Shown here piece after piece: positions 3,976-33,700 of a DNA stretch of 64,000 nt. Source of the DNA: Mactra quadrangularis. Lineage: Eukaryota > Mollusca > Bivalvia > Venerida > Mactridae. The stretch lies in contig CM046307.1 in the NCBI GenBank assembly GCA_025267735.1, positions 54,803,395 to 54,867,394 on the forward strand, given 5' to 3'. Positions within the stretch are counted from its first letter, which is position 1, and the number at the start of each line of letters is the position of its first letter. Below the pieces are notes generated by a model that did no database searches, was not told where the DNA came from, and saw only the letters and a list, made by a program, of their open reading frames with translations. The translations under genes were made by a program, and so were the position numbers.

Positions 3976-6900
3976 CTATTCTATTTTGAATCGTTTTGCA
4001 GTTGTACCATCTCCAGCAGCAAAATTGTTAGACACTGGCATAACAACAATAGTCTTTGCACCTCCCATGCCTCCAGTAGTAGTTGCAGTCTTCACTGCCA
4101 GAGTTCCAGTGTTTCCAGAGGACACTAAACCAACGGCACCATTATGGTTAGCAGTGCCTGCTGTAGTTGCACTAAGCACCATCAACGTTGTTGCTCCAGA
4201 GTTACCTCCAAGATTCTCTGCTGTTGATCGTGTTATAAGCGATGTTGCTCCAGCCAATGTTTTGTTTAGCGGAGCTTGTATGAGCGTAGGTTTGGTGACG
4301 ATTGCGCTGGTAGTTTTGTTAATAGATTGCGCCACTGGTTTCTCTATGTCTGGTTCAGAGAAACTCATGGCAACTGCACTACTGAGATCCACAAACTGAA
4401 AATACAGACAAGATTTAGTTAAAAAAAATTGTAAATTATGTTGAATAATATAAACAGGGTTTCCTGTAATATACAAGCAAACAATTTACAGAAGACAGCA
4501 AGCTGTACATAATGAAGTTATACAGTTAGTACATTGGTTGTTATTTAGAATTTATCTTTTCATGAAAATAATTACAAAATAGAAATTCTTTTTAAATATT
4601 TTTTTCAAAAATAGTACTTCATTTATATTTTTCATGTAAATTTAAATTAAATTGATAGTAAGTGCATATCATTATCAAACTGTAGATTTCGCAAACAATT
4701 CAAAATAGAAAATATACCTTAAAAGAAATAATTAATGAAAAGTAAATCTCACTGATTGATCAGACTAAATTGACTTATATATAGCAGTCAGTCAACCTAA
4801 CCGCCATTCCAGGAAAAGCTAAATTTCTAGATTAAGCTGGTACCAGTTTCAAGGCAATACCTCCTACATGAGTGACTGACAACTGCCTTATATCATTTCA
4901 AGTCAGTAGTAGGAGGGTGAATTGCTGTAAAAGTAATTTCATGACCAAACTCTTTGAAAGTATGCCCACCCAGGATCAAACGTGCGACCTCTCAATAAAT
5001 AGACTATACATATAAAATATATATAAAAAGCTACAAACTGAGCTAGCCAGATAGGATATGATCATAAATTACAAGCATTACAAACCTCTCCCATCACAGC
5101 TATAGGAGTCTCCCCAGTTGCTGAGGCAACTTTATGTTCAACAAGATAAAACATATATTCATCATATAACAACCGTATCAGATGAAATGAACCAAAACTT
5201 GCAGCACTTCTCAATGTAAGATCTCTGATAACCATTGAGCTGTAAATACAACAAACAACAATTTAACCAAACTTAAACCTTAAACATGGAGTTTGAATAT
5301 AAAGTTAAATAGAAGTTATGTTTTAGGTATCTAATCAACGGCTATATTTTGTAACATGACTTTGTGTCACAGACATAAAATCAGAGTTCAAAGATTATGA
5401 AAATGTCATGCAGTCGTAACAAGTAAACAGTGCTTTGCTGAGTGCTTAAATATAAAATGTGAGCCTACAGCCCAGTAGGTTTGAATTGTTGGGGACATTT
5501 AAAACTTATTGGGGCCCAAAAAAAATTTTGCTTCTGGTGCAATTTATATTGGTAATTATTAATTAGCAAAATCCTTGGCTAAACACTGCATGCTGACCTA
5601 TCAAAACTTTAACACTATCATGAGTGGAAGTTGAAAGTTTTGAAAATACTGAAAATCTACTTTCAGAATACTGAAAGGTACAAGGAATAAACAAAATGGC
5701 TGAAATATGTACTTGGTCATATGACAGTCAGTCACCAAAAAAGTTCAATTTGATGATCCTACCTGTAGAAAGACCACTTGAGTAAAAATTGTCTAGCAGC
5801 CTTTGGAAAGTTGGCACTTCCTTCATGTGGTTTAAGGACCTGATTAACTACACCTTCAAGCCATATAGCCCATTGTTCTAAGGAATTTTGAGCTTGTAAT
5901 GTTTTCTTGAAATCTTGTTCTAATTGCTGCACCATGCTATCATCGCACTGGCATACCCAACTTGCTTGCTCCTGAATAAATTGATAGATCATAGTGTTAA
6001 CAAAGTGTACATTGCATGGACATGTAAAATTAGGGCAAACAATGCCTTAATAAAATAAATATTCCATGGTTTCTGATGTTATATTTTATTTCACTGCCTA
6101 TAGTTTTTAATTTTTACTATTATATATATGTATACTTAGCCAAACAAATACATCTACTGACAAAACACAGTTTAGCAGAGTATATGAATTGGAAACTACA
6201 GAGTTAAATGTCCATCAAAAATGCAGCAACAAATATTCATAAACTATTTCATTAAAAGGCATATTTACCATTCTACTAATGGAACTTAATAATCCAAATT
6301 GTTTGGAAAGAACACTGAATCACATTGTCTCGGATTGAAGACCAATTGTTTTATCCAAATCAGACCAGAGGTGTTTACCCATTAACACACAAAATTTCAG
6401 CTATAATACTACATTGAAAATATGGATCCAGTCTTTTCCTAATTCCACAAGCCAGATTTGACCCTGGCCAGTGAAAGTTTCCTATTTCATATACTCAGGC
6501 AAGTGAGTAATAATCTTGGCTTATCACTATAAAAACATGATAGATCCGTCAAGTGCTGGTAAAATTCTACAATGAAGTCTGCTAATTAGTATATTAAAAA
6601 TCTGTTTATTACCTGTACATTAGCAAAGTCCACTCTATTTAAGTCTGTTAACATCTGATTTATTTGTGAGGTATTTTGAAGTACTGCCCTAGCAGCTTGA
6701 GCAAGATGGTTAAGGGACGTGTATCGTCTAAGTGTCTGGGCAAAGGCACTTACTGCTCCAAGCTACAAAATAAACAGTCAACAATAACTATACAGTCAGC
6801 ACAAAAATAGAATGTATTATTCTGTATAAAGCACCAGGGAAAAAACATTACTGCTTCAAAAAAGATGACCACACAATAAAGGTGCATATCAGATCAAAAT

Positions 6901-9900
6901 TCAAGCTTAGAAATATTTTGTCTTGGCTACTTATATAACTGGATTTAAATACTGCAGTACTTCTGTACTAATTGCCTATAAAAAATAGTTTTCAGTAACT
7001 ATGTACATGGGGATTATTGAACGAATATTGAGTATTTAAATCACCAGGCTTAATGTATGCCCCACTGACAATTGAATAAAATCTATCAATACAAATATCA
7101 TATTAGCAAGGGTGCAAGATGAAAATTTTAAAAAACCTGAAAACTGTAATTTGAAACCATTTTTCTTCATAATTTAATATCAGAACATTGCCTGATTTGT
7201 TGTGAAAAACCTGAACTTCAGGCATATGCCTGAAAACTTGCACCCATGTATTAGTATACAGATTATTTTTGTCTCAAAGAATGATTATATAACAGTTTTT
7301 ACCTTTGTTTTCATCATGTCATCAGGCACATTGGTCATGGCTCCTTTCAGCCAATTCTCTAAACTTTTGGCGAAGTTTCTAATAGCTTGAGTTAAAGAAC
7401 CTGTAAATAAAACAACAAATTAACATACAAGTAACAATAACTTAATAACTTTATTGTTAAGAAAGAACATTCTTCTTTTGTATGGTTTATGTCAGGTCAA
7501 CACAAATTATGGTCATTTTACTGCACCAGCTCACCCAACACTTATTCCAGTTTTCTGGACCCTTGTCTAGAACCAGTACTTGCCTATCCTTCTATAAGGT
7601 TGACAACATCTCCATATACCTTTACAAGAAGAAAAATGAACATAATTGTCAAATTTTCATAGAAGGTATAACCAGCCAGTATGGGCTTCTAATCTACGAC
7701 CAAACTCCGAGATTCCATATCCTGGGCATAGCCTACTGCCACACAGACACAGGTTACATGACAATAACCAGACTTTCAACTGCATGTTAACATTAACACA
7801 TGATAAAAGAATAAAGGAATAACAAACTTACTTGGTATGGGTCTAAGGACATCTGGTATAAGTACTTCAACAAGAGCTTGATAAAACATGTAATCAGATT
7901 TACGTACATAATTTTGTACTGGTTCGTACTTGCACATTGTATATAATTTTTCCCTGGGTAATCGTCTCTCATAATCATTATCAGTACTGTAATAAAACAC
8001 CAATATTCACATCATAAAACAACGATACATTATTGCTGCTACTTATTCATGGTACATTACCTTTATTACTCTTAATTTATCATCAGATAAAATCTATACT
8101 ATGTATAGCAAGTTATTTCAGAACATTTCAATTAGCAGAACTGAACTACTTAAGTAAACTATACAACTGATAAAACATATATTGAAGATTTTAAATCAAT
8201 AAAAAGGTGTAAGCTTACATATCAGGAATAGCAATAGTCAAATAACACAGGCCTACTACAAAGCCACAAGGCAAAAATAAGATTTTTTTTAGATTTTCAA
8301 ATATTTGTTATATAAGACACACCACAAACAATGAAACAACAACCTAAAGGGTTTCCGCCTAATTAAGGATGATTTTATTCACCCACTAATACAGCCAGGT
8401 GGGGACCTAGTTTCTTAACACATGAGATCTAAATGCAGATCAGTATTATACACTTACAACTATTTCAATCTGGAAATTAATAAACTGATTGGCAAGCTCA
8501 TGCTTAGTAAATGTGATTATAATAAGAAAATTGGAAAGTCAATATCAAAGGTTCCTGTCACAATATGCATATACATAAATCAAAACTAATATACAGAAAG
8601 GTTCCATTATAAAGACCACCTTAATTGGTTATGGCAGAATCATATGATTTTGACGACTTTTAAGTGCCAAATGCTTAATATGCTAAGAAAAGGTCCCTAT
8701 ATAAAACCATTCCACTATAAAGACCATAGATTATGATGATTCTAATAGTGAAACTTTACTGTAGTTAAAATCAGGAAGAAATTAACAAGGATGTACCATT
8801 TCTATTGACATAGACTAAGTCTATATGTACTAAATATGCTATCTATATGATAAATAAGACAATACCTATGATCTATGGATGCATTTCTCCAGAAGCCTTG
8901 CCATAAAGCTTCAATCAATGAGAACTGTAAGTTGACTACAACATCAACAATAGCCTGTAAATAAAAGTAAAACAATTCATTGTATAGTCTGTCTGCATTG
9001 CATAGGTGCTAGTACTATATTCCTGAAATTATTAAATTTCACAATTTCTGCAACAGTTTAATTAGAAAAGTACCGTTTTTCAGGAACTAAAACTTTCACC
9101 TGAGTGCATTTTTTAAAGTAATTTACTAATGCAATTGACAAAATATTACATGCTAAAATTTGTGTGTAAACCAACATTCAAAGTTATTGATGACAGTTTT
9201 ATGTACATCTATATGTTTGTTTGAACCAGTAGTTAACAAGATTTTACCATCAACTCTAGATGTGATAATTCTAAAGTATAAACCTGAAAATTAATCACTT
9301 TTTGGACTCACAGAGAATAAGTCTGTATAAGACCACAGAGTTGTTGATGATAACTCATCATTTACAAAAAAGTAAAAATGAATCAGACAATACATGTACA
9401 CTTCCCATACTCTGCTGTCAGATTTCATCCCATACTAAACACATACTTGTGCCAGTAGCTGACAACTGCCCTACCTAATACAGAAGTAGGAAGGTAAATG
9501 ACCAATTTCTATAGAAGTATGTTACTATGTAGGTCCTGCTCAGGAATCAAGTTCCAAACTTGTGGTTTCATAGTCAGATGTTCTACAGACTGACATAACC
9601 TGGCAGGTAACCTATATAAATTTTATGGTAATTAAGAAATAACAGACAGTTGCACTTGTTTTTATGCACGTAATTTATAACTCATGCTGAAGCACAACTT
9701 ATATTATTTTGGCACATCAAAGCTTGTGCCTATGTGTTATTCTATAACAAATATAGAAAAAAATGTACGTTATTTCCATTTTTCCATACAAAATTCTCTT
9801 TAGTTTTATAAAAGAGGGGGTAATATATAACAGCCATGTATTTGTTCAATATCAAAACATAGAAGACATCATATTTAATTTAGTGTGTTTGCATTAGCAG

Positions 9901-12900
9901 TGGTTTTTTCAGGCCATTTTGAAAATAAATTTTTAAAAAATCCTCCTTTTTCATTTTGGTAGCTATTTTCCCCTAAATAATGGCCCTCCAATATTTTCAA
10001 TAAAAGTGAAAAAAAAAACGCTAGTTAGAAATATAAATAAAGTATACCTCAGCATGTTCCCTATACATTTTTTGAAAGATATGTACATGATCTGGAGTAA
10101 TACCATCAGGTAGTGGTTGTGAAGATAAATCTATATCACCAAAGTTGGGTATAGCTCCTGATGCATCACCAAGAAATTGTTGATGTTGGTGTTGTTGTGT
10201 AGTTGGACCTTCTGGTTGGGTTTGACTCTCAGAGCCACCATAACCACCATCACCACCTTCAGACTTAGGTCGGAATCTAAAATTTATGTTTAAGTGTTGT
10301 TAGTACGTCATGTTTCAATGTTTGTTTGGATTAGGTATAAACATCATCATTACATGTCAACACTAATTATGGTCATTTTAAAAAAGCCAGCTCACCCAAC
10401 CTGGTTTTCCTGGACCTTATACAGATCTACCCTTGTAAAAGGTTGATTTCTGCTCTACTTATAAATTGCAGAAAATCAACAATATTGTTGAATTTTCAAG
10501 GAAGGGTATAACTAGCTTCAAACTTGCAATCCCTTCAGGACACTAGATTTGAAATCCTGCACCTAGAAAATGATTTGATACAAAATTGATTCTATTTTCA
10601 TTTGTACAAATACAGTACTTGCATGCATGTAACAACTCATAATTGGACGTTACCAGTCAATCACAAAGTCAGCTTGCTATAAGTAAATTCAAAGGTAAAT
10701 AAATTAGAATTCTAGAAGAAGTCTATAGCTTATAACTGCAAATGACAAGATTATAATAACAGAGAATATTACAATTAATTTTCAAAAACTTACTTTTTCC
10801 CTTGATATAATGGTTGTTGTCTCATAGCCATTGTTTGATCATCAGTAAATTGATTGAGAGGTGAATTAGCTTTTATTCTGATACCATAATAATGGTACTT
10901 GGAGTTACCCCTGAAAATATAACCAAACAATGTTACATCATCTTTGACAGTACAAATAATCATATATGATAGAAAATGGTAAAGTGTATCAGGTCCCTAT
11001 GGTTATCTAGAGGCAAAACTCGACAATGTATTATTTAGACTAAGTCACAAGTTATCTATAACCTGTAAAATCCTATTTGTGTATAAGGTTTATCAAATTC
11101 TGTAACTGAAGCATGATTTGTAACCTTAAAAACAAATTGCCTCCTTTTTGTTCCAATATTCAGAAGTTTGCACAAAATTAAAGGGCCTTACAAAATTTCT
11201 ATGACTAACGAAATTAGCACAAAAACTGAAATTGCATACTGCAGGTAATTTAACTTTTATTAAAGCATATTCATATAAGTTAACATACTCTGAACCATAC
11301 AATTATTCAGTATTTGGGGAAGGGGACAAGGGGCTTACTATATGTACAACATTACCGGAAATTTTATTGCAGTTTCAAGGCAAAATAAAAACATCCAAGA
11401 TAAGCTCCAATTCGGGGAAAACTTAATGATTTTAATGAAAGGGTAAGGGTCCTCTTAACAGTTCAATTATATCAGGAAAAAAAGTCCCGATACTTAAAGA
11501 CTATCCAAGTTTAACTTACCTTGTACCTAAACGTCTAGTTCTCAGACCAAGGAATACAGATCTAATTAATTTACCAAACGATGCTGGATTCATAGGATCT
11601 AAATTTTGTTCTTGGCAATGTCGTAAATAATGATTATACAAGGTACTTCTAGGTAAACTAACGCCATCAGCAGTCTCATAGTTATCTATCAACCATTGTA
11701 CCTACATAAATATAACATTTATAAATATATGCTTTGATCTTAATCACATGTTTCATTTCTTAATTAATTTCTATTTTTCAATTCTTAAGGTTAAACACAA
11801 AAAAAACAAATAACAATTAACTGACATAAATTGAACATTTTTATCTTGAAGCTGATTGAAGAAGCATTATTTCAGAATCACAGTAAAGTTCTGCTCTGAA
11901 GATAACATAGATTATAGCAAAATCATGCAATTTATGATGATTTTCAAGTCCAAAATGCTTTATTTGAAAACAAAAAAGGTCACTATATTAAGACCATCTA
12001 TTTTGATGTCACTTACAGCAAATTTTACTGCACATGTATACAACTATAAAATAGCAATAATTTTTGAATGAATAATTATTTATATGACTACCATGAGGTA
12101 ATAGAGTAATGGATCATCATACTATAATAAATCACACATTATGATTCATAAGTTTTGAAGTTTCTTATATCGGAACTTTACTGTAAATCACAATCATTAA
12201 AACATTAAAAGATTATTCTTATAGTTGTTCCACCAGCAGAATTATATCATAGAATCTAGACTTAAATGTCAGACAGTATAGTAAGTATATAATGACAAGG
12301 TATGTAAGTACATTACAATTAATTGACTATCGTTCTTTTCATGTTATTTCAAGTGGAAACCTTAATCATCATCATTTATTTCTTACTACATCATATTACA
12401 CATTACCACATTATTACAGCACGGTCATTGGCTTACAGACTTCAAGTTGTATGCATATGATAATTTTAATACTAATGGAAAATTAATAGAATTGTATATT
12501 GAGTAAAGTTGGAACATGTCGATATTATAAAAAATTTAAAGCATAAAAAACACATTCCAAAATGAAAAGTCATGCATTGCACAATGAAAAAAAACACCAT
12601 AAGAATAAAACATTCACAATTTTATGTTTGCTTAGCGCCTGACTAAGAATATATGCAAGGTCATCATGATACCATGAGCTAAGTTTCATACCAGTCTGAA
12701 AATTTAGCTAGTGTACTAAGAACTGATTCTAACCTATAAAAGTGCTTGAAAATCCATTCAGTTTTTCAAATTAAACAGTCAAGTGGTTATTTGGTACAAT
12801 AAAATTTGCAATTTGCCAAACTAATTTCCAGTACGAGAAAAAGTTTTTAGTGAAGAATGCATACATTAAGAAATCATTACTTATAAAATGCTTGAGTGTA

Positions 12901-15900
12901 AACATAATATGAACACAAAGTATAAGGAAGTTATTACAACAAATCAAGGATGTTTAAAATACCAACTGAATACAAGCATCAAAATAAAATATAAAAAAAC
13001 ATGCTTTTATTTGTCTAAAACACTGAGCATGTTCAAACTGAAGATAAAATAAAGTATAAAATCTTTCAAATAAATAATACATATACAGATAACATAACAT
13101 GTTACATAGAAGTATTAATCTAAAGTTATGTTTCTAAAAAGCACATGAAAATCTAAAGAGAGCAAAAAATGAAACCAACTATAAAATGCCAACAACCACC
13201 CAAATTTTAAATGAATCAAAGGAAATTGATGGCTCAGGGCAACACTAATCTCCACTTTTTTATTTACAAATAGTAAGACTAGTTTTACACTAACCCATCA
13301 AAATGGAAATAAAAAGCCGAGTATCCTAAATATGTTTTGTAATCATAGGAGCCATTGAAAGAAAACAATTACACATATAGTCAAGAATGAACTTAGAACT
13401 TTTAAAACTTCAATTTTGTACCACTTTGATAACAACCCTTTCATGTGCTTTTTTAAATTCTTGAGACTAAACAGAACCCAACCACCAGTAATATACTAGA
13501 ATAGCATGCCATCCTAAAAAGCAGAGGGTCGACAAATTAAGGCCATCCCATGCCCTGTCATGCAGCCTAGGAACAGGGCAACAATATACAATACATTCAC
13601 ACCAGATACAAAATGTAGTGGATAGCAGACTGACAGTCAATGTTATTTATTCAACTTAGAATAAAATGAATGCCTAAAATTTTCCGACTATTGAATTGAT
13701 TAATGTATAATCAAGTCAAAATTTAAGCCACAAATATTGTAACATAATTTTTTTTTACTTAAGAAGAGTTATTTTGAAATTTTTAACCCAATGCTCAATT
13801 GACCAAATATTTTCAATACATCATTTTTGCGAAAAAGTTAGGCAAATATAAACCTATCAAATAAAGACTCATGATCGAATATCTTAGAATCATCAAAGTT
13901 TAGTAGCTATTAAACTTAAAATTCTGTTAAGTAGTCAACATAAGACTGCAAGAACGAATTTTTATACAGCAGTCCTCACCTTAATCCACAAGCACAAAGT
14001 GGGAGACAAGTGAAAATAGAGTTATGCTAGTGAAAATGGTGTATTTCATATATTAAATCAGGCTAGTTGATAGTTTCACTTATTACTATAAAATACAAGA
14101 TATTGGGAAACAGCTTTTGTAAAATTTCAAGGCCAAGACTAATACATTTATTATCCGATATGCAATCCACATACATTTGTATCCAGTTTTATTAAAGTAT
14201 ATAATAATCATGTTGGATTACCCCACTCTTGAGAGATGGAACATCAAGGTTTACAGAGCTACCCTTACTCTCGAAAGTACTGGCATATCTAGCCAGAGCT
14301 GACTGCTGTAACGATGAAAAGGCAAAAAAAACATGGATCAAAAGATAGACAAGTCTAGAGTCAATACAAATCTCTTGTCATCAAGACAATGACAAGTTAT
14401 TATTCAATTTACATAGAAACAATTGTCACAACAAGTAACTAGAAAAATTTGGCATGCACAACGTTAACAAATATATCAAAATTGAGCACACTAGCTGTAC
14501 TATATAGTTCGAAAAAAAAAAACAAGAAAAAAAATCAAAAGTTATAATATAGAGATCTAAATGTTATGTACAGCATTAATTTAGTATTTCTACAAATATG
14601 GATAATAAAAACAATGAGAAAATTTTTTGATGTAAATTGTAATGGCAAATCTTGTCATTTTTCTATCTAGTTAAGTTAAGGTTAAGCTCTGTAAACGATT
14701 GATTGAACAGGAAGAATGTTTTTAGAATAATTAAAATAGTCTACAGGATGACAGTCTATCAACAACAATCAGTGATAGGGGTAGCAAATATCACAAATTT
14801 TGAAATACTCGGTGAATTTAATGTGGTTTTTTGATAACAAGTGGAAATTTCAAAACTTGTTTTTTAGAAAAAGTGCAGCATATACAATAATAATCTGTAA
14901 AACATGTATTACTAGTATAGGAAAACAAAAGCGAAAGTCAAAATAAACATAGTAGTTGTTGTTGATGACTGAGAAGTTAAAACAGTTTTAGCAAGTCAGA
15001 GCTACTAAAAATATATGTAAATAAATATACAGGAAATTTGTTTTCCAGTTTGAAAATCAAGAAAATTGAAAAGAAGAATAAAAAGACAAGATCTCCCATT
15101 GATGCGTTATATATAAAACATAGGATACCTTCTCAGATGTTGAACATTTTAAACACAATCACAACATCAATATATACCAACAAGTGTATTTTTATCATAT
15201 ATACAACAGAACTGTTCTTTTTTACAAAGGGAATATGTTTTTAATAAAAATGCACATATATGTTTGTTTGTTTTTACAAAATACGCATGTGTAAGGGTAA
15301 TTAGATACAGAACAAGTATATTTATATATACTACAGTACAAAGCACCAATGGGGCGATCTTTGTTTTTACAAGAAAAAAATCTTCAGTATAATTTAAAAA
15401 ACTTTCTTTTTATTTTTTACATAACGTTTTCGTACACAAAGCATTGTAATCACAACATAGAAGCATGCTTTATACACCGAAACCAGCCTTGACAGCATAG
15501 TATTGAAATTATCATGTAATATTTTTAAAAATGAAATCGCTGGTTTAGTGCAAACAGTCGTAACTCATTATAAGAAGAGTGAGTTACGATTGTTTTGCGC
15601 TAAACCCGCAAAATGATAGTTTAGTGCAATATACAAAATCATTTCAAATTATAACATGTATAAGATAGATAAGTATGCATGCAATAACTGTTTGCACTTT
15701 TAAGATGATTTCAAAATTACCAATCTGTCCCGAAAACAACAAATCATGTTGAACGAGGCCAACGGTAAATTTTGTATTTGCTTGCAATGTATCAGCATTG
15801 AAATTAACGAATTTATTTGTAATCATATATTGTAAAAAGACTGAAGTTCAGGGAAGACATATACATTTACATATGTAGATAAAAAAAAGCTAAAATTTCT

Positions 15901-18900
15901 TGATTAATAAGTTGTAAAATTCTGGCTGGAAAATTACAAAATTACATGACTTCACAATAATATAAATGGACAAGATTTATAGAATATTTTCAAGGATAAT
16001 GTAAGTGCACTATGTAATATTACAGTACTTACTTCTTGACTGCGATTGTACAACTCGTCCTACAAATATATAATGATTGAAAACCTAGCATAGTGGAAAT
16101 ATAACATAACCTTATCATGGGCTGTGTCTCTAACATGTAACAGATCATAGTAGTGAGCGTAACATCCTCAGTTTTGGTTGTCTTTGTTCAACAGACAAGG
16201 TATCCTTTGTTAGTTTGGATTAAACTAATGAGTGCCGAAATAATAAACCGACAAAATGTATTAACAAATAAATGAGGGGAATGAATGAATGATATGAAGG
16301 TATGAATTAATGAACAAGTAAAATGAATGAAAGAAGGATTTATTCAATGAACATGTAAAATCAGTCATCGCCTTAACCCACCATCCTGAAGTCAAGGGCT
16401 AGAGAAAACTGCTTATTTCATACAGTCTGGCAAGTTGATAATTTTGCCCTTTACTAATTTACATTAAAAATCAGGCTAGTTCATAGTGTTAAATTTTCTC
16501 CAACACTATGACTAGCCTTATTATAAATATACACATGTAATTATAAAATATTAAGGCAATGACTGTACATAATATGAATGAGAGAATGAATGAACAAATG
16601 AACATGTAAAATAAATGAACATGTGATAACATAGGAAAACAGGAATGAATGAATGAATGAATAAATGAATTAATGAATGAATGGTAATGAAAAAATGATT
16701 GGTGGTTAAATGCAGAAAATAAAATCATTAATAAACTAACTAAGACTGTAATACAGAGCAGTTTGGAATTCTTGATATATATAAATGTAATCTAGAATGA
16801 ACACTTCAAACAACAGGGTGGTGTGATTGTTGATAGATGAAGTATTCATCTAGAGAAAGCCAGAAGCCAACAAGACGGAGATTGAGTGGGGGGGAAGGGT
16901 TTAACTAAGTGAATAGCAATTCAATAGCAGGTAATTCCTTTAATTTTTTTCAGGGAGAAAGGGAGAAACATAATTTCAACTCAACAGTCATTTTAATGGG
17001 TAAGAATGAAAAATGTATGAAGAAATGATTGGCCAACATAGTCCCTCATAGAACAACACACTTAAAAAAAACTCCCCTTCACCTAATCACATCAAATCAA
17101 CACTTCAAGTTCAATAGATACACGTAAACGCACTAAAAATGAAATAGATCTCATCCCAGGCTGACTAGAGCATACCGAGAGTTGTGGCAAAGCTTTTTTT
17201 TATATATAAAACATGTAATATATATGTCTTATATGAAATTAGAGTGATATTCTAATAAGATTGTAAAGCAGGGTACGACACCAACTTTGCCCCAGGATTC
17301 CAAGGATCCCCAAAACTTGGGAGGAAGCCCAGTGATGCTTAGCTTGAGATTTTGCAGGATTCCATTAAATTACCATTGTTACATAAATTTGAGTTTCACA
17401 ACCATTGTTCATCACAATTTATGCCTGCAAATCTGTATCCATTTTTTGGGTCAATTTTTTTGGAGGAATCCCTGATGTTAAAAAGGAATCTTTGAAAAAC
17501 TGACAACAGATTCCTTCTGGATCCTTAGTAAAACAGTAAGTGTCAAACCCTGTTAAGTTATACTTGGATGTCATTGTGACCTTACAATCTCACTGGCAAA
17601 TTAAAACTAATCATAATTACAGAGTGCCAGGCTGAGAAAAAAAGGAATAAACTGCACACTAAGTGTTGGTAATCTTTTACACTAAGTAAGAGACAGCAAA
17701 GATGGCTTGTTAACCATACCATGATATTAGTTGTGTCTGAATGTAGGTTATAAAAACCTGAGCAATGTAAGACTTTTAACAAAGTTCATGGAATATTGCA
17801 ACAAAGTTCTCCTTTGGGAATATTGTTCACAAAGTTCTACTTTTGGAACAGTGTTCAACAAGTTCAACTTAAAGATCAGAGTTCACAAAGTTCTACTTTT
17901 GGAACAGTGTTCACAAAGTTCTACTATAGGAACAGTGTCCTTAAAGTTCTACTTTTGGAAAAAAATTCAAGAAGTTCAACTTCTTACTTTTATCATTTCT
18001 GTAGTAAAGTTGGATTTAAATTTAATGTTTTAAGATTGTTGAGCACTTACATTTCAATATTCCATGTAACAGGAAGAGAGTTTTTAAGAAAACAATTTTG
18101 AATCAATTTTCCTATATCACCAATTAGAAATCAAACTACATATATGTAGTTATAAGTTTTTGTCATAGATGTAATCCAGAACTCAAAATTGGTTTTTTCA
18201 CAGCACTGACCAGGAACAAACAACTTCTTTTGGAGAATAATAGCTCAAAATCATGTGCTACAAAATTTCTATTCATTTGCAACCATAGTTTTCATTGTAC
18301 CAGTACATGTATGTGCATTGTAGGGAAAAACCCATAGATTTGAATTTTTGGATAAAATCTAGTGAGTTTGTATACAAGTTATTAAAACAGACACATCTAA
18401 TATCCTAGATGGTAAATCCAGTGTGAGTAAAACATAGAGATATTTACCGTGGCAGGTGAAGCTCTTGTTGTATGTGTTAATGGAGTACCTTCACCATCCA
18501 TTGTTCCACCTTGTATTAGATATGTGTTACCTCCTTGCTGGGTTAATATATGACCTTGCATTGTTTGTATTGTAGTTCCCATACTTGGAATACCTTGGGC
18601 AACCTACAGTAGGAATAAATATAATTATGAAATATAAACAATATGCTGAGGTATACAGTGCTATAAAAAAATTACCTTTACAAATATTAAACATTTTTGA
18701 TACAAAATGGAAATAAATGCACATTGCTCATTGCTTAAAATGTAGGGTTATTTAGACTAGCTAAATAGATTCTTTAATAATTCCTGAGGAGATTTAGAAT
18801 ATTGAACATAGAAGTTAGACTGGCAGATTTAGTTTTCAAATTAAAATGTTGATACATGGCATTGTCATTATTCAAAACAGATGTTTGAGCAATTTCATAG

Positions 18901-21900
18901 TTTTGAGAAAAGAGCATTTGAAAGTTCAAACAGCCAGTATTAAGCATGGCTTATAATATTATTTTCATAGGATTAAATTATTGTATAGAATAGTTTCACA
19001 GGAATATAACCCTAAGAGTTGTGAAGAGCTTAAAAAAACTAACATAATGGTACTAATATAAAAAGAGCGCTATAAAAATGTGGTATATAATAATAACATA
19101 AAAGTACCAAACACTCAATATTGCCAAAAGTTGACTTACATCCCTCTGGAATGAGACCAACTATGTATGTACATACCTGTCCACTTCCAGTCTGGTAATA
19201 TGTACCAGATGATGTGTTATATACTGCTGTCTGTCCATACTCACTACTGTATTGTCTACAAAATAAATATAATATGCAATAAGACATGGTACTTCAACTG
19301 ACTGACTTAAAAAATAACATATAATGGAGCCTCAGAAAAACTGAACAGAAAGTTTCATTTTCCAAGGTGCAGTTTATTTTTCTGAGATTCCAAAGTAGAT
19401 ATATAATTTAGAACTCAATAAAAAAAACAAATTAAATAATTTGATGAAAGAAAAGTACTAAAACAAGTGTAATAAATCAAGTCAATGATCACAAAAACTG
19501 ATCTTGGCAAAAGTTTAATAATGACTACAAATACTTAAAGACAAGATCCAAGTATTGACTATAGGTTAATTAACAAAAAGTGTAAAATCAATGTAAAATC
19601 AACAAAAACAAGTCAGTACAAACACAAAACAACAAAAATGAAATTTATGCAATCAACAACACTACAATCAATTTGATTATGGTTCATCACACAAACATAA
19701 ACCTACAATCCCCGACTAAGCTTTTATATCATTTAAAATTCCATATGATAATACTATAAAATTAAACTGCGCTATATCAGGTATGTGCCAAAGTGAATAT
19801 GAGTACATTGATTACTCTATCTTCTCCAAGATTATAGTTTGTGCATTCACTCTTAATTTGTGTATTAACAAAATTAACCCATTGAAACCCTTAAAGAAAA
19901 GCCAAATGCTGAGCTTCATAATTAACTGAATACTTTATGGGAGAACAACAACCACAACATATAAAACAAAATCAATTTACCCTTCATTATTCCAGCGAAC
20001 CCTGTCAAATTAACAAATAAAAGCCTACACATGCATTCATTCAAAAACAGAAGGCAAAAAATAAAAACAATGGAAATTAAAAGTTACTTATAAGTACTAT
20101 CAAAACAACAATCAAATGATCCAAAGTAATCACAAGAATAATAACAGAAAATGCTTTGGGCAGACAAACCAGATAAGTAACCCGTAACAATGTGTCAGTT
20201 AAACTTTTAACATTACAGCAACTATTGATGCAATTGACATTACGCCAAGGCCACTATAACTACATTTTAAGACAAGTGGCTAATGTATTTTTCATTTTTT
20301 CATGTGTGAACGAAATTATTAATATTTAGAAATGGGAGGTCTGGCGTAATGTCAGTTAGTACCACATTTAAACCAACACTTTACTACAACTGATGTTATA
20401 AGTTAAATTACTATTGAAAGTTAATACTTCGTTTTAACTAGTAAAAACACAACATAGTATTTAATAAATTTCATACAAATCTACATTACATAATCTATTG
20501 ATCCAATAAACATAATACAAAAGTTTTTAATAAACACTACAAGTCATGCAAAACATAAAACCAGCAGCCATTGCCTTTACTCACTAGCCCGGAACAAGTG
20601 AAAATAAATTCTGGCTAGTGGAAATTACTAATTTTATTTAGATGGGCCAGTTAATAATTTTGAACTAAACCCACTAATTCAAAGTATGGGACTACCAGAC
20701 TAGTAAAAATTAATTCTGGCTAGTGGAAATAACTTATTTCATTTATTTGGGCCAGTTGATAATTTTGCCCTTAGCCCACTAGTCCAAAGTATGGGATTAG
20801 TAAAAATTTAATTCTGGCTAGTGTAAATAACTTGTTTCATGAAGTTGACCCAGTCCAAATTTTGCCCTCAACTCACTAGTCCAAAGTGCGAGACCAGTAG
20901 TCCAAAGTATGGGATTAGTAAAAATTTAATTCTGGATAGTGTAAATAACTTGTTTCATGAAGTTGACTCAGTCCAAATTTTGCCCTCAACTCACTAGTCC
21001 AAAGTATGAGACCAGTGAAAATGAATTCTGGCTTGTGGAAATTACTTATTTCATATAGTCAGGCTAGTTGATAATTTTGCTCTGACTATATGACAATAAA
21101 GTGGGCTAGTGCTGGAGAAAATAAGGCAATTACTGAACCAGTGATTTCTACTTGTTAAAACAACATCTAGTGACAATTTGAAAACAATAACTGAAGAGAT
21201 TAGATCACACACACACAAAACAACATAAGTGAAAATGATATATTGAAAAAAAGACAAAAAAGTCAAACTAGATAATATATACTAAAAATAAAAACTCTAG
21301 AACTTAAATTATGAACATCAACTAATTCAAAGTTGAAGTAATAATTCAAGTTATCTTTTCTTGTCTTACAAACAGTCAAATTTGAGTTTTGTTTTCAGAT
21401 TTTTATACTTGTATCATTTTTGGTGGCAATCTAGATGTGTAATAAGACAAACACAAGTTCAATTCAATTTGGTTCGAATGAAATGGAGGCATAAAGTCAT
21501 AGACATTTCTGTTTCTTAGGTAGAATCACAAAATTGCAATTGTTTTTAAATTTAGATTTTAATCCATAAACCAACATTTACAAACTTGTATCAACTGCAG
21601 ACAAATCAGTAGAAACTCAATGAAGTTTCTACAAGTAAGTAAATTATTCAAAACAACTAGACATTGAATGTAAATATATTTATATGAATTGGTTATAAAT
21701 TGAATAGATTGTATTTCATTTTGCTCTCAGAAACACAGTGCAGAGTCTCTGAGGAAGGCAAAATATCATATTCAGTTATAGTTGTATAAAATACATTCAT
21801 TTGAATTTTTATGTATAAACATTCAATGTGCTTTTTTCTGACCCCCAAAAGTATGTATTTTTTGCCTTCAAAACAAAATTCTCTAATATATTGTACTTAA

Positions 21901-23853
21901 ACGGTAAACCTATGCCACCCTTCTTCTTAATAAAGTAGAAATAAAATGCTAACTTGATGCTAGCTAAAGCCAAGAACTGAGATACAAAGAACATGTTGTT
22001 GTCTACTACACATCTAGATATTTCTCCACAATGTTAGTGAGATTTTGGATAAGAGAACAACACTTCATACAATACTGCAATATGTATAGATTTATACATA
22101 ATGCAGTTAGGAAAGCCATGCTAGACTGACAGCAGCACCACAATGTCAAACGGAGCACCATCACGTCTAGATCATGTTAGTATCATACATTTGACCGTTT
22201 GTAGATGCGTAGATACTTGGATCATTGCCTTCTACATACTGAACATGTGCTGGATAGATTGTCTGGCCTCCTGGATGAATGGCTATATTCTCTTGGTTAC
22301 TCTGATTCTGTTCTGTCAAGGCTTCAGCCACAGATGCTGTTAAAAAAATAAAATATTCATTCATACATTATAAAGTCAATAGATTTGATTCAAAACTTCA
22401 GTTGATGGTTTTTTTTCCAGCAGAAAAGCTTCTTTTGTACCGGATGTACACATGATTAACAAAGTTGAAATAAAAATGTGAGTAAACAGAACAGTAGGAT
22501 TTAATCTGTGCAGCATTCTTTTTTTTTCAAGAACATGTAAAACATTTAGTTCTGAAGGGATGCATTCAGTACAAACAATCTATTTTTTACTTGAAAAAAA
22601 ATTGGTGCTCTTATTGAGTTCAACTAATGAATACCATCAAAGTACTCATAAAGGCTCACTGAGCTAATTGACCGGCAGATATAAACCAACTTTGAAAATA
22701 GAAATGATATTTAAAAAGAAATGATACATAGTTAATAATATAAGTTTGTAGACCTTCATAGAATTAGATGTATAAAATGATAACAAATAAAGCATTAATA
22801 TCACTTAATCATAATTAGAAAAAAAGTATAATTGAAATAACACAAGTCATATTATATTTACAGCAGTAGAAATATACCAATGTCTTATAAATATAGCACA
22901 AGAAATTTGCATTAGAGGTAATAGCTCTAGCAAAGGGGAATAGCTCTTCATGTTAATGAATTATTTCAAACTACATCTTCATCTAATTTAAAATATAAGC
23001 AAGCAGTTGACCTTTACTCAAATAAATTTCAATGAGAATTCAACTACAATTACAAACATGACGACCAACAATTTTCTTAGAATCGAATCAACATGTTTAT
23101 AACTAATTTAATTTGAAAGCTACTCTCAATGTTTAAGTTAAAGCTTGATTAAAACAAAATTACTTGATGTATGAATCTGTCTAATACTATAAATTAAGTA
23201 TTATACTGATAACTTGAATTTTCAACAACTTACTTGTAACAATAAACTGCTGCTGGCCTGAATGGGCCTGAGCAGGCTGTATAATAGTTGCAGTCTTTTG
23301 ACTCTGGGCTGCCTGTGATGAAGCTGGTGACTTGGAATTCTACAGAAAAAAAATATACACAACTTTAATCAAAGGCAATCTGGAAATTCTAGACAGTTAA
23401 TTACTCAAAGAGCAAAATACAAGAAAAAATGGCATTTTAACAGATTGATAAGTTATTGGTAAATCAGGACTTAAATAGCAGATCGCTAAATTACCGTGAC
23501 CAGTTCAAAAGGTGGAATTATTTACTTAAACACATAAACACACTTGAAAGTGACAACAGGTTCAAGAAAGAGCATACAACTTACCTATGCAGACAATTTT
23601 TTACATTTGAAAATTACAATCACTATTTCAGACACAATTTTGAAAAAGAGTCATTTAAGACTTATACATTGTATTAGATGAACTGTGTTGTGAAGTACCA
23701 TTTGAAATGTCAATTGACTGATAAATATAATTATGCACTATATAAAAGTGATGTATTAGTATTTATAGAGACACTAACCTGGTTCACCTGATGTACTTGT
23801 ACCACTGTTGGATTCATTGCTTGTAGGTCGGTCACAAATGTCTGTGTGGCCAT
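3976..23853 (-). CDS. RFX-family winged-helix transcription factor (RFX1/2/3 group)
   Basis: Sequence-specific nuclear regulator; RFX1/2/3 proteins bind X-box motifs and in animals drive cilium genes (family knowledge). Coding exons, 5' to 3' on the minus strand: 23853-23779, 23339-23234, 22336-22189, 19255-19177, 18603-18448, 11701-11520, 10910-10794, 10276-10048, 8954-8866, 7986-7832, 7400-7303, 6762-6613, 5971-5763, 5239-5086, 4395-3976. All splice sites are GT/AG, phases join, and the total is 2367 nt (788 residues). Recognisable blocks are an N-terminal Q-rich activation region with [10 protein letters not shown], the linker [10 protein letters not shown] (ends residue 188), the DNA-binding domain (about 189-262, with [18 protein letters not shown]), then the conserved B/C/dimerisation region ([73 protein letters not shown]). 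The last exon is a poorly conserved Ala/Thr/Gly-rich tail ending KRFKIE. I chose the Met at 23853 because the upstream frame has no other Met before a stop. Which RFX1/2/3 paralogue it matches is unresolved. Confidence 0.93.
4780..5055 (-). repeat. tRNA-derived SINE copy 1
   Basis: Read on the minus strand, the head has an A-box-like GGCTAGCTCAGTTTGTAG (5048-5031) and a B-box-like GTTTGATCC (near 4980), then a body with TGGTCATGAAA and GGCAGTTGTCAGTCACT. The same body occurs in four other copies in the window. It lies in an RFX intron. Confidence 0.7.
7494..7760. repeat. dispersed repeat family B, copy 1
   Basis: Shares blocks AATTATGGTCATTTTA, CCAGCTCACCCAAC, TTTCTGGACC-like and AAGGTATAAC with 10355-10575, in the same order and spacing. 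Its high-coordinate end has a B-box-like GGATATGGAATCTCGG on the minus strand, so it may be another SINE. Confidence 0.5.
8592..8763. mobile_element. short MITE family C, copy 1
   Basis: Terminal inverted repeats: ACAGAAAGGTTCCATTATAA on the left and GTGAAACTTTACTGT on the right. The interior words AAGACCA and GACTTTTAAGTGCCAAATGC match copies at 11880 and 30787. RFX intron. Confidence 0.6.
9410..9605 (-). repeat. tRNA-derived SINE copy 2, diverged
   Basis: Shares with the other copies the body segment GGCAGTTGTCAGCTACTGG and, at the high-coordinate end on the minus strand, an A-box-like CAGTCTGTAG followed by a B-box-like GGAACTTGATTCC. It lies in an RFX intron. Confidence 0.55.
10355..10575. 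repeat. dispersed repeat family B, copy 2
   Basis: Second copy of the family seen at 7494-7760, about 60 bp upstream of an RFX exon in window coordinates. The shared order of conserved blocks is the evidence; ends are approximate. Confidence 0.5.
11880..12186. mobile_element. short MITE family C, copy 2, with insertion
   Basis: Left end ACAGTAAAGTTCTG, right end CGGAACTTTACTGTA, with shared interior TTTTCAAGTCCAAAATGC and AAGACCATCTATTTTGATG. It is longer than the other copies because of extra sequence before the right end. RFX intron. Confidence 0.55.
14222..14305 (-). other. candidate 84-nt cassette exon of the RFX gene
   Basis: On the minus strand a long pyrimidine tract and TTACAG acceptor precede 84 nt that are open in phase 0, encoding 28 residues beginning [13 protein letters not shown] and ending VPSLKSG. 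A GTAATC donor follows, weaker than consensus. The insertion point, just after RASPAT and before the DNA-binding domain, is where I recall vertebrate RFX2/RFX3 carrying a cassette exon of similar size. No clear sequence match to that exon is visible. Confidence 0.5.
15542..15606. repeat. imperfect 26-bp inverted repeat (hairpin)
   Basis: Arms at 15542-15567 and 15580-15606 (GGTTTAGTGCAAACAGTCGT against its near complement) are separated by 12 bases. It lies in the large RFX intron between the two candidate cassette exons. Confidence 0.6.
16033..16059 (-). other. candidate 27-nt cassette microexon of the RFX gene
   Basis: On the minus strand a TTTGTAG acceptor precedes 27 nt encoding DELYNRSQE, followed by an excellent GTAAGTAC donor. 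It lies inside the phase-0 intron between exons 18603-18448 and 11701-11520. Its length is a multiple of three and it is open in the only usable frame. Including it would insert nine residues directly before the DNA-binding domain. Splice-site quality and phase are seen in the sequence; actual use is inference. Confidence 0.55.
16560..16700. repeat. ATGA-type microsatellite tract
   Basis: Runs of GAAT/AATG tetramers, purest at about 16642-16684, with a related looser stretch at 16270-16340. It lies in the large RFX intron. Confidence 0.7.
17800..17985. repeat. about 28-bp tandem repeat, 6-7 copies
   Basis: Unit resembles TTCACAAAGTTCTACTTTTG plus GAACAGTG. Two overlapping open frames of about 100 codons here are repeat artefacts because the unit is not a multiple of three. 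RFX intron. Confidence 0.75.
20235..20354. mobile_element. 120-bp MITE with 13-bp perfect TIRs
   Basis: TGACATTACGCCA at 20235-20247 and its exact complement at 20342-20354. No clear target duplication. RFX intron. Confidence 0.6.
20580..21115. repeat. degenerate about 100-bp tandem array
   Basis: Four to five copies of a unit containing TTCTGGCTAGTG, AACTTGTTTCATGAAGTTGA, CCAAATTTTGCCC and CACTAGTCCAAAGTATG. Related single pieces occur near 6470, 14035, 16400 and 58655, so the unit belongs to a dispersed family locally amplified here. Confidence 0.7.
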
Positions 23854-25515
23854 TAAGTCAACGTCCTCAATTTCCTCATCCGAATCAACTATGAATAAAA
23901 AAATACAAAACACACAATTTATAACATTTTTCAAATAAAATCAAAATTAAACTTCTTTTCATTTACAACTTAAATATCTTCCACACTAAACTAAGGGTAA
24001 CAACCCTAATACAATGTGTCTCATAGAACTACTATAAACTTGAAGATAATAAATAAATGATAACAGGATTTAAAGATTAATGTATAATGTACCTGTATTA
24101 GTATAATCCTTTTTCCTGAACAGCATGATCAAACAAGGGTATTTAACTTTAAGTTTCCAGTAATGTGTGATTTAAGTACAATCATTCATCAGTATCAAAA
24201 GAAATCCCTAAATTTGTATGTCTATCAATCAAAGTGCTATAAACAAAGAATCAAACAAGATGTACATACTGGCCTTTTAAACTACATCACACCTTCACAG
24301 AGCAAGTTTAAACAATGTCCTACCATACACTACAGATTAATTTGGTTTCAAAATGAATAGATACATGAAGACACTGGATGTATTGTTTTATGTTAAAAGG
24401 CTGCACAAAAAAAAAAAAACAGAATAAACTATCCATCAAAATCCATGTACTGTAACATTTTTCCAATACAAAGCAAATATTTCATATCCAAAATGAGTTA
24501 CATGCAGACAAACATAAACAAAAATCTATTTTTAAAATCATAACATCAACATTGAATGACTCATTTATAAAACCTGAGTGTGTTTACATTATGAGTTTGA
24601 GTTTTAATTGCTTCAAAGGAAGAAAATTAGGAAATGGGGTTTTAACAAAGAAAATGATACATCACAGTAGTGACATCTTCCACTAAATAACCATATGACA
24701 ATGCTTATAAACAATATTTTTGTATTTTTTTTCAAAACATGGGAATTGGTTAATAATAGAAATTGACCCAAATACCAAACTAAATATTAAGTGTTCTTAG
24801 CTAGAATTACAAAATAAATAAAGATTTTGAAGCAAGTTTAGCTTAGAATGTCAATAAAACTTGATTAATTAATAGTCAAGGATATAATAACACAACAATA
24901 AGAAGAAAACAGAATTTAAGATTAACATGTCATTTCATGTCTTCAAGATGAAATCTAAAAATAAATTTCAACTTAATATCCTAATTTAAGCCTTATTATA
25001 CATCAGGGAGAGATAAAAGTGCTTAAAATGATAACAGACACATGTATATCACATTTTCCACCGCCCATCAACATTATCTAGCACATCTTTAGCATCTCTT
25101 AGCAACCCGACTTTTCCCCTGGTAGCGTCTACGCATCCATGGTATTTGGACGCTTTGATCAACCATTTTGAATGCCCCAATTCCTCTAATAACACGACGA
25201 AAAGTGATAAAATATAACATATAAAATAATTACATATAGTATCCATGATTATTTTTTATAAAATAGGCTATTTATCCATCATAATCCAATAATATATTCA
25301 AAACTACCGCCAATTTCTAATAATTTCACTAAAAAATTGGTTGCAGTGCTCACGAAGGCCTCGCCATTTTCTGTCAACAAACCAAGACGGATTATGGCCG
25401 ATTATAACGCCCAACATTTTTAGGGAAATGTAGAAAAATACATATAAAGACATCAACAAAAGTGATGCTGGTGACATGATACGTGATACTACATACAAAA
25501 TGAAAGAAAAATCAC

Positions 25516-30700: not shown

Positions 30701-33700
30701 TTTTGTTCACACGACACATGGTTTGTTATTTAAGAAAACCCAACAGCTTTCACCAGTCCCATCGAGAGAGTCACATCCAGAAATATAGTAAAGTTTCATT
30801 ATAAAGGCCACATACAATGTAGGTTATTGCAAAATCACGTGTTTTTTTGCGATTTTTAAGTCCCAAAATGCTAATTTTAGACGAAAATGGTCTCTGTAAT
30901 ACGACCATTCCGCTATTAAGACCATTGATTTTGATGGTCATAAAAGTGGAACTTCCTTATAATTATGAAAAATATGAAAGTTGTTTTACCTGTTTTATAC
31001 AGCACCAACATTTTGGAGGACTCAAGCTAAGAACAATATCTTGAAGAAAGTTGGTTCACCACCTATAGTTGGCAAAGCCAAGAATGTAATGATATTCCTT
31101 GGAGATGGTATGAGTATCCCAACAATCTCTGCTGCAAGAATACTCAAAGGTCAAATTGCAGGCAATACTGGAGAAGAAACAGTTCTTAGTTTTGAACAGT
31201 TCCCATGGTCAGGTCTTTCCAAGGTAACATTATACCTAGAAATCTTGTGTTTAGGAAAACTCGTCCATTCCTTGCAAATCTCACCGATCCTGATTGTTTT
31301 TTTTTCAAAATAAATAAGATGTTTACCTTCAATAATAATGAATAAAAGAGAAGACTATCCATAGCCCGTAGGAACAGGGGGGGGGGGGGCTTAGCCCCCC
31401 TCAATATTTTTAGCAGTTATAGTGATTAAGGATCTTTATTTAATCTGTAACACTAAATTGATTGTTACATATATGTGTGCTTTTTCGGCAAAATCAATAT
31501 TGCAAACACTTTTATGGAACAATTAAGATGCTCAAATGCAGTGTAAAATTAAACTTAAACATAAGTTCTGTAACATTAAGAAACGTTTTCTTTTTCTCAA
31601 AATAAATCTCAACGAATTAGCCCCCCGCAATATAAAAATGCCTGCATATTACATTGTTTAGTGAACATCACGATTGGCTGCTAAAAAAACTTGTAGCCTA
31701 CCCTACCTAACATTGTTGAACAAGGTTGCCCTAAACACATACTTTTTTACCTTAATTATACTTTATCAAGCAATACAAAAAATGTGAAACTGAAGTCCTT
31801 ACAGTCGATAAAATATTCATAATTATGATTAAAAATAACATTGTTGATTTTTTTTAAAGTCCCTTTTAACTATCGCTTTTGAGTCGTGACACATTATATT
31901 ACATGTATAATAAGCTGTGGCGTGACTCTAAAGACTCATTCCCACTTAGAATGTACATTTGATGTCTCCAACGTTTATCATGTTTCCAGGAATTTAACTT
32001 ACATAATTTATGTAAATGAAATGCATATTTACAAGTGATAGTGCTATAGTAAAAGTATAAACGACATATTTCGTGAAGAAAACTTCGACTTTTTCAAAAT
32101 AGTATTTCTTAATTAAGCTAGGGTGTAGAAAATCCCTATGTCTCCAATGACAAATTCTTACAGTTAGCTTCAAATTGTTAAAAAATTCAGACAGATTTCC
32201 AATTAAATATATCTTTAATATGTCAATTATTACTAAATCCTCAAGAAAAACACATATTATAATGTACATTCAAAAATAATTTTCCACACCTCATACAACA
32301 AACGTTGTCTCCAAACTCCGATAACGTACGGGACATTTATTTAAAGGCTTCATTAATCTCACAGCTTTGCACTCTTTACAAACTATTTCTGTGTAAGTGA
32401 AGTCCATAAAGTTATATCCTAATGATAAGATATTCATTTTAGCTGACATTTTATTGGTATCGGTAATTTATGAGCTCATTTATTAAAAAAATGAATCGTA
32501 ATTTTCACCACGTAACGAACGGGACAATTAGTAAAATCAAATTATCTAACAAACCTTTCTAAATAGATATATAAATTCTTCATTGAACTGATCTTCAATG
32601 ATTAAATGAAAAGTTTATAAAGAGTTTTTGTAATCCATTTAAAGTGCATATTTGTGACACACACAAAGCAGTAATATACCTACAGAAGATGAAATGAAAA
32701 ATAACGTACGAGTCCGTAACGTACGGGACAAAATGTGACACAATAATTGATAATCGTCTGAATATTTATGATAAATTGCTTTTGTAAGGTTCCTTAACAT
32801 GCATTTAATCTTCACAAACGAAAATATTATGGGAACGGCAATTATAATGAAACAGATGATGTTCAAAAGTAACTAACAAGAGTGACGGGAAAAAAAGTTA
32901 TAGTACTTATTATTAGCAATAAATGATGAATAGTTTGCATTGTTCTTAATTGAATACCCCCTAGCTTTGAAATGATAAAATAAAACAATGCCTCGTTTGA
33001 TCAAATCATAACTTTAGAATCATTTTAGCACACACTGCAATAATTTGATCAGGTTAATACATTATCTTACTTATTTAATAACGTACGGGACACTGTAGAA
33101 TTGTCTAAACATGCATTTGCCTGATGATTTGATGGTTGTAAATCACATGTTACCCCACTACTAAATAGCTTTTATTAGTTTATGCGTTAGCTTGCTATGT
33201 TTCTTTGTTAAACTTGTCACAAAATTGTTGAATGTTGTTCTCTTGGAAAAATGAAAATGGTTCGCGTAATTATTGTAATTGAGAGATATTAATGTAGTTT
33301 TATATGTAAAACACAAGTACACAAAAACAAATTACACAACAATGTAAGTTGTATTCTTGCAGTTTAACTTAGTTATCAATAGTTTAGATGACCAAACTTA
33401 AGTATATAACGTACGAGTCAATTTTGCTAACGTACGGGACAACAATTATATTCTTTATTGGTTGCTTTGTGGTGGTTCACATGCACACAACATTTTGTTA
33501 TAACACTAAGACAATGGTATCTAACTATTTTAAACAGTTTCATTCTATATTTAACTTGTTTGTATCGTTCTGGAACAGTTGATATGAATGACATTTTTAA
33601 AACAAATAAAACTAATGGAAATAGCTAATTCAATATTTATGTTTTTCTGAAAGTACCTGGCTTACTCTTCAGTCATTATCATTTATTCCGAAACATAATA

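Follow-up and report, generated by a model that had tools for sequence, protein, structure and literature searches.

Gene structure and probable cassette exons

The window analysed here is a stretch of 64,000 nucleotides (nt) from the clam Mactra quadrangularis (GCA_025267735.1, contig CM046307.1, positions 54,803,395 to 54,867,394). Its minus strand carries a complete RFX1/2/3-type gene (3976..25246; ATG at 25246, stop at 3976) with 19 coding exons, three cassettes counted, and a product of 804 to 848 residues depending on the combination. RFX proteins are master regulators of cilia. Two of the cassettes, of 27 and 84 nt, lie in the intron directly before the winged-helix exon of the RFX DNA-binding domain (DBD). 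They are probably genuine, functionally constrained cassette exons of the RFX1/2/3-type gene of this heterodont clam, by which splicing would tune a hinge in front of this domain.

A tblastn probe located the exons, which were then joined manually at GT/AG borders. For the short first exon (25246-25234), the N-termini of the Mya, Dreissena and Mercenaria proteins served as a guide. The winged-helix exon (11520..11701), whose product starts with VQWLIDNYETADG, matches PF02257 with 87.3 bits, above the cut-off, and the domain aligns with the solved RFX1 domain 1dp7 with an E-value of 2.5e-42 (phmmer). The tblastn pieces following the DBD are 38-96% identical to the RFX3-like probe. The DBD, together with the conserved regions through the dimerisation region, places the gene in the RFX1/2/3 subfamily. 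Other places of the genome (contigs C3, C7 and C12) also carry RFX domains.

The upstream exon (18448..18603) ends with ...TTRASPAT and is separated from the winged-helix exon by a phase-0 intron (11702..18447). Within this intron lie the 27-nt microexon (16033..16059; atttgtag/27 nt/gtaagtac), encoding DELYNRSQE, and the 84-nt exon (14222..14305; cgttacag/84 nt/gtaatcca), encoding the 28-residue peptide QSALARYASTFESKGSSVNLDVPSLKSG (QSALARY...LKSG). Both are on the minus strand and in phase 0. Their coordinates, lengths, phase and open frames agree with a first-pass annotation that had proposed the two exons. A third cassette had gone unnoticed there. This 21-nt microexon (19981..20001, minus strand; gacag/21 nt/gtaaat) interrupts a phase-2 intron, adds VRWNNEG and was recognised from its counterpart MVRWNNEG in Mya P0001 and Mercenaria P0003. 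All three lengths are multiples of three, skipping preserves the frame and each of the eight include/skip combinations is open. With the third cassette present, the earlier figure of up to four isoforms is too low and up to eight are possible.

Microexons are limited to 27 nt; the 27-nt and 21-nt exons, both in frame, belong to this class and the 84-nt exon does not. The acceptor of the 84-nt exon (14303-14305) is a NAGNAG site (ttacag/cag). Use of the downstream AG would remove one Gln from the 28-residue insert, and this Gln is retained in all three clam proteins with the exon.

Conservation in other clams

Approximately 5.8 billion proteins were searched with a query centred on the cassette region, and all comparisons refer to the matches listed. 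The top four among these are isoform X3 of Mya arenaria (P0001), isoform X4 of Dreissena polymorpha (P0002), isoform X4 of Mercenaria mercenaria (P0003) and a protein translated from a contig (P0004). Mya and Dreissena belong to the Myida and Mercenaria to the Venerida, all within the Imparidentia. P0004 is an unbroken frame of 780 residues on a contig of 3003 bases (source tag lgn). As this frame spans what are many exons in the window, the contig most likely represents a spliced transcript.

In P0001 and P0002, SPAT and VQWL are separated by both peptides, arranged as in the window. P0003 contains the 28-residue peptide only and lacks DELYNRSQE; P0004 contains DELYNRSQE only and lacks the peptide of the 84-nt exon. 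P0003 and P0004 are 94.3% identical, yet they show opposite exon choices. DELYNRSQE is identical at 9/9 positions in P0001, P0002 and P0004, and the 28-residue peptide at 25/28 in P0001, 25/28 in P0002 and 26/28 in P0003, i.e. each is found in three of the four closest proteins. The peptide of the 21-nt exon is identical at 8/8 residues in P0001 and P0003 and absent from P0002 and P0004. Inclusion of the cassettes thus varies between protein models of different animals. The first-pass annotation had named conservation in related molluscs as a check on its two candidates, and the recovery of both peptides in Mya and Dreissena, and of one each in Mercenaria and P0004, at the same junction identifies them as real coding exons.

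Over the aligned residues the window protein is 92.3% identical to the Mercenaria protein, 90.8% to P0004, 86.5% to Mya and 85.3% to Dreissena; by these identities they are, in this order, the closest full-length proteins among the matches listed. The winged helix is identical at 73 of 74 residues in one of these four proteins and at all 74 in the other three, and the region after the DBD at 439-484 of 526. Between the window and Mya, the cassettes (9/9 and 25/28) are better conserved than the flanking parts of the N-terminal half (99/126 and 65/78).

In a Potamilus model (Unionida) the junction between SPAT and VQWL carries VSSSSRE instead, and the oyster models read have nothing at this position. 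Two oyster models, P0032 and P0036, are RFX proteins of ~1000 residues that also bear PF05670, perhaps fused neighbouring genes.

Splice sites and a second genomic copy

Splice sites were scored with weight matrices trained on the introns of the RFX gene itself, cassettes excluded, and compared by leave-one-out scoring with the gene's 14 constitutive internal exons. The 27-nt exon has a log-odds sum of 17.0, within the range of the constitutive exons (-0.9 to 21.1), and the 84-nt exon a weak sum of 5.9 with the same matrices. The chance expectation was taken from AG/GT pairs on both strands that are 12-150 nt apart, have positive site scores, are open and have a length that is a multiple of three. 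In the whole window, 9 such pairs equal or exceed the score of the 27-nt exon, 0 of them in the host intron; 237 do so for the 84-nt exon, 9 of them in that intron. The near-ideal splice sites claimed by the first-pass annotation therefore hold for the 27-nt exon but not for the 84-nt exon. Sequence alone moderately backs the former. It gives hardly any support to the latter, which would be unremarkable by this measure since nine open rivals lie in its own intron. Weak splice sites are common in optional exons.

The genome compared (979 Mb, 447 contigs) contains a second copy of the locus ~13 Mb away on the same contig (G000:C15:67940001-67989990; L012, L010, L009, L011 and L013). This copy is inverted, covers most of window 1-44274 and extends past the stretch compared. 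Its longest blocks are ~94% identical to the window and the others ~73 to 97%. It is either an uncollapsed haplotype or a large inverted duplication. The copies differ at 706 of 18086 aligned intron bases and at 23 of 2547 positions over all 19 exons. In the cassettes there are 0/21, 0/27 and 1/84 substitutions (1/132 in total), the single one being synonymous. This conservation matches the expectation for coding sequence. The flanks of the 27-nt exon differ at 3 of 299 positions, a value equally low in 21 of 246 intron windows and hence not distinctive; extra conservation of the intron flanks was accordingly dropped as a sign of splicing control.

Alignments of window 36008-36598 to the second copy overlap in many registers, in the manner of a tandem array, and the second copy seems to have a longer version of this array. 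Elsewhere in the window, an open frame on the plus strand (30978-31313) contains the stretch KNVMIFLGDGMSIPTISAARILKG, which looks alkaline-phosphatase-like.

Inserts at the same junction in other animals

The position between SPAT and VQWL, hereafter the slot, was inspected across the RFX1/2/3 proteins. An automatic filter reduced 151 proteins to 69 by removing near-duplicates, proteins with no recognisable core and proteins with a core of less than 400 residues. The insert-free pearl-oyster protein P0042 served as the reference. The proteins were aligned and 477 positions were scanned, starting ten residues ahead of the ASPAT motif and finishing where the conserved region ends. The sample consists of the matches listed, is cassette-seeded and mollusc-rich, and is neither a census nor a random sample of animals; 107 vertebrate RFX2-type entries were kept out of the count.

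At least three extra residues are present in the slot in 40 of 68 dereplicated proteins, with 37 distinct inserts. The next positions of the scan have insertions in 15, 14 and 14 proteins, all of them within loose regions downstream of the DBD; six positions have one and the others none. An earlier, hand-chosen set (32 rows, varied inserts favoured) gave a similar picture, with the slot filled in 20 of 31 proteins and eight other exon junctions, all downstream, filled in 0 or 1 of 31. The slot is an insertion hotspot in the scanned part of the protein.

Annotated models indicate that inserts in the slot are optional within several other species. Models of Centruroides vittatus and of Limulus have none, one or two segments, those of Tachypleus tridentatus none or two. 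Within each of three Mytilus species the models have VSAT or no insert, Ptychodera flava has DYHPQ or no insert, and the Macrobrachium models differ by VSET. RFX3 models from three species of rays contain IEMA... alone, AGML... alone, or both (P0099, P0113 and P0093).

The inserts may have arisen in different ways. In Strigamia maritima (P0081) the insert EGVAYLVQGSSVDGDGHHLTHATRVSPQT follows GGTYLIQGSGTMDGDAHTLTHASRASPQT and repeats the preceding segment (...RASPQT and ...RVSPxT copies), which suggests exon duplication at the slot in arthropods. Crustacean models such as P0091, P0130 and P0136 resemble it. Inserts starting with V (VSA, VSAT, VSET and VRPL) look like products of a donor site farther downstream, because V can be encoded by the GT of the old donor.

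The vertebrate segment and predicted structures

Vertebrate RFX2 and RFX3 contain a 25-residue segment of the IEMAIENLQKSEGITAHKSTLLNSH type at exactly the same junction (SPAT or SPGT before LQWL). All 107 further RFX2-type entries contain this segment in some form, the query P0108 including it and thus biasing the set towards inclusion. By pattern, 100 of the 107 have exactly 25 residues. Six gave a longer span, as SPAT is altered and the pattern was anchored upstream, and P0187 has two extra residues. The vertebrate segment is probably a separate, skippable exon, and a human RFX2 isoform 25 residues shorter is reported. The optional vertebrate exon mentioned in the first-pass annotation is borne out in its position; its optional use is presumed, the ray RFX3 variants being from three different species.

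The two clam peptides were compared with 11 insert groups in 33 comparisons of 2000 shuffles each, every one of them setting a clam peptide against one group. No convincing similarity was found in any of these comparisons. For the 84-nt peptide against the vertebrate segment, 584 of 2000 shuffles reach the score of the window form and 1525 of 2000 that of the Mya form. The lowest counts came from Haliotis with the window form of the 84-nt peptide (50/2000, against 1273/2000 with the Mya form), from the heterobranch snails with the 27-nt peptide (153/2000) and from the chitons with the 84-nt peptide (230 and 274/2000). Since no similarity between clam and vertebrate inserts rises above the shuffled controls, the evidence leans towards inserts that entered a common slot independently, and away from a single exon of deep conservation, two possibilities that the first-pass annotation had left side by side.

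AlphaFold models were calculated for the Mya protein (alignment of 32) and for shark RFX2 (alignment of 28). In the Mya model, a helix (205-224) comprises all of DELYNRSQE and the first 11 residues of the 28-residue peptide. The shark model has a helix at 186-200, ending IEMAIENLQKSE. In both, a loop follows and a second helix begins at the end of the insert and continues into helix 1 of the DBD (236-248 in Mya, 204-220 in shark). A helix, a loop and a lengthened first DBD helix may thus be common to the clam and shark inserts, which we regard as a lead only.

Discussion

Conserved peptides at one junction, intact frames on skipping and differing exon choices in close relatives make it likely that the 27-nt and 84-nt exons are true cassettes. 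Regulated inclusion in Mactra, a helical shape of the inserts and an effect on function are what we infer from them. Several points weigh against this reading. The evidence for optional use comes from genomic sequence and database protein models, and the NCBI isoform models are automated predictions. No clam species with both forms was seen among the cluster representatives. The splice sites of the 84-nt exon are weak. Confidence in the predicted structures is low to moderate over the inserts: the means of 10-residue blocks are 46, 69, 53 and 59 for clam residues 201-240 and 51 and 53 for shark residues 191-210, and clam residues 227-234 and shark residues 199-205 are below 50.

That the candidates are pseudoexons, i.e. 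open AG/GT pairs that are never spliced in, is extremely improbable. Splice scores alone could not exclude this for the 84-nt exon, with its nine rivals in the host intron, and the explanation was rejected because the peptides recur, unchanged or almost so, at this junction in three named clams and one contig protein. It is less far-fetched, but still unlikely, that the exons are real and constitutive in this species, their absence elsewhere reflecting lineage loss or incomplete models. Mercenaria X4 without the 27-nt exon and P0004 without the 84-nt exon are each one protein of one animal, which fits such an explanation, as does the lack of a clam species with both forms. The clam clusters, however, show one representative each, and the three named ones hold 13-16 member sequences, which may be isoforms. 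The preserved frame of all three cassettes, the weak sites of the 84-nt exon, as often found in optional exons, the opposite choices in the closely similar P0003 and P0004, and the models with and without inserts inside several other species also speak for optional use. The clam exons might instead be homologues of the vertebrate 25-residue segment, diverged beyond recognition from an optional exon of the first bilaterians. The identical junction, the comparable size and the similar predicted arrangement of helix, loop and extended helix 1 agree with common descent. We nevertheless consider it quite improbable, as the 84-nt peptide is no nearer to the vertebrate peptides than its shuffled copies are, the oyster, pearl oyster, Solemya and several snail models that were read have no insert, and other lineages have differing inserts. 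The vertebrate segment is one block in most RFX2 entries read and the clam insert consists of two.

As to how inclusion of the cassettes might be controlled, the microexons could belong to a neural eMIC (SRRM4-type) programme, the included form being specific to neurons; we rate this as a possibility, and a rather doubtful one. Fly eMIC exons are marked by a UGC near the 3' splice site and by short length, and further by a long AG exclusion zone, a branch point and a UCUC tract (PMC8797185). In the clam gene, UGC precedes the 3' splice site by 34 nt at the 21-nt exon, by 31 nt at the 27-nt exon and by 19 nt at the 84-nt exon. Within 35 nt it precedes 3/3 cassettes and 1/15 other exons of the gene, but this limit was set post hoc, and within 60 nt the figures are 3/3 and 5/15. 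The placement of UGC is suggestive only. Like neural microexons, the 27- and 21-nt exons are short and in frame, and the UGC a little upstream of them may be a further similarity. Unlike them, the 84-nt exon is too long to be a microexon.

If the two exons are optional, as we favour, splicing would determine how long the hinge that links the N-terminal half to the winged helix is and what it consists of, and would leave the residues that read DNA untouched. With neither exon, SPAT would join directly to the first helix of the DBD. Inclusion of both would add a short helix followed by a flexible loop and would lengthen the first helix, and the extra helix could contact the DNA backbone, the other half of the dimer or a partner. 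Target recognition should stay unchanged, as the winged helix is nearly identical among the clams. The most likely effect would be to tune partner docking or the seating of the dimer on X-box DNA, or to switch between activation and repression by cell type. An analogy is offered by Caenorhabditis elegans, where the long forms DAF-19A/B, as opposed to the ciliary isoforms, function in non-ciliated neurons and are in part repressors (PMC10393296).

The RFX2-like isoforms of Mya arenaria, Dreissena polymorpha and Mercenaria mercenaria have the same peptides in the same place and already exist as database models; these proteins are not new in themselves. A literature search of mainly open-access coverage found nothing on them, nor any account of a cassette exon or of recurrent insertion at this point of RFX. 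This is a weak sign of novelty.

The wider slot is more interesting than the two exons themselves. Tentatively, and with considerable reserve, the junction before DBD helix 1 may be viewed as a Bilateria-wide, splice-regulated socket that has been filled repeatedly by unrelated inserts converging on a helix and a lengthened helix 1, through which one RFX gene would serve ciliary and non-ciliary programmes. Two inserts would stand in series in clams, chelicerates, sharks and rays, and the socket would grow by new cassettes, donor extension and exon duplication. In the scanned region, different peptides are inserted at one exact residue boundary and hardly ever at other exon junctions. This recurrence suggests that the structure tolerates insertions there or that regulation calls for them. 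With a splice-controlled hinge next to an almost frozen DBD, one RFX factor could do several jobs by simple means.

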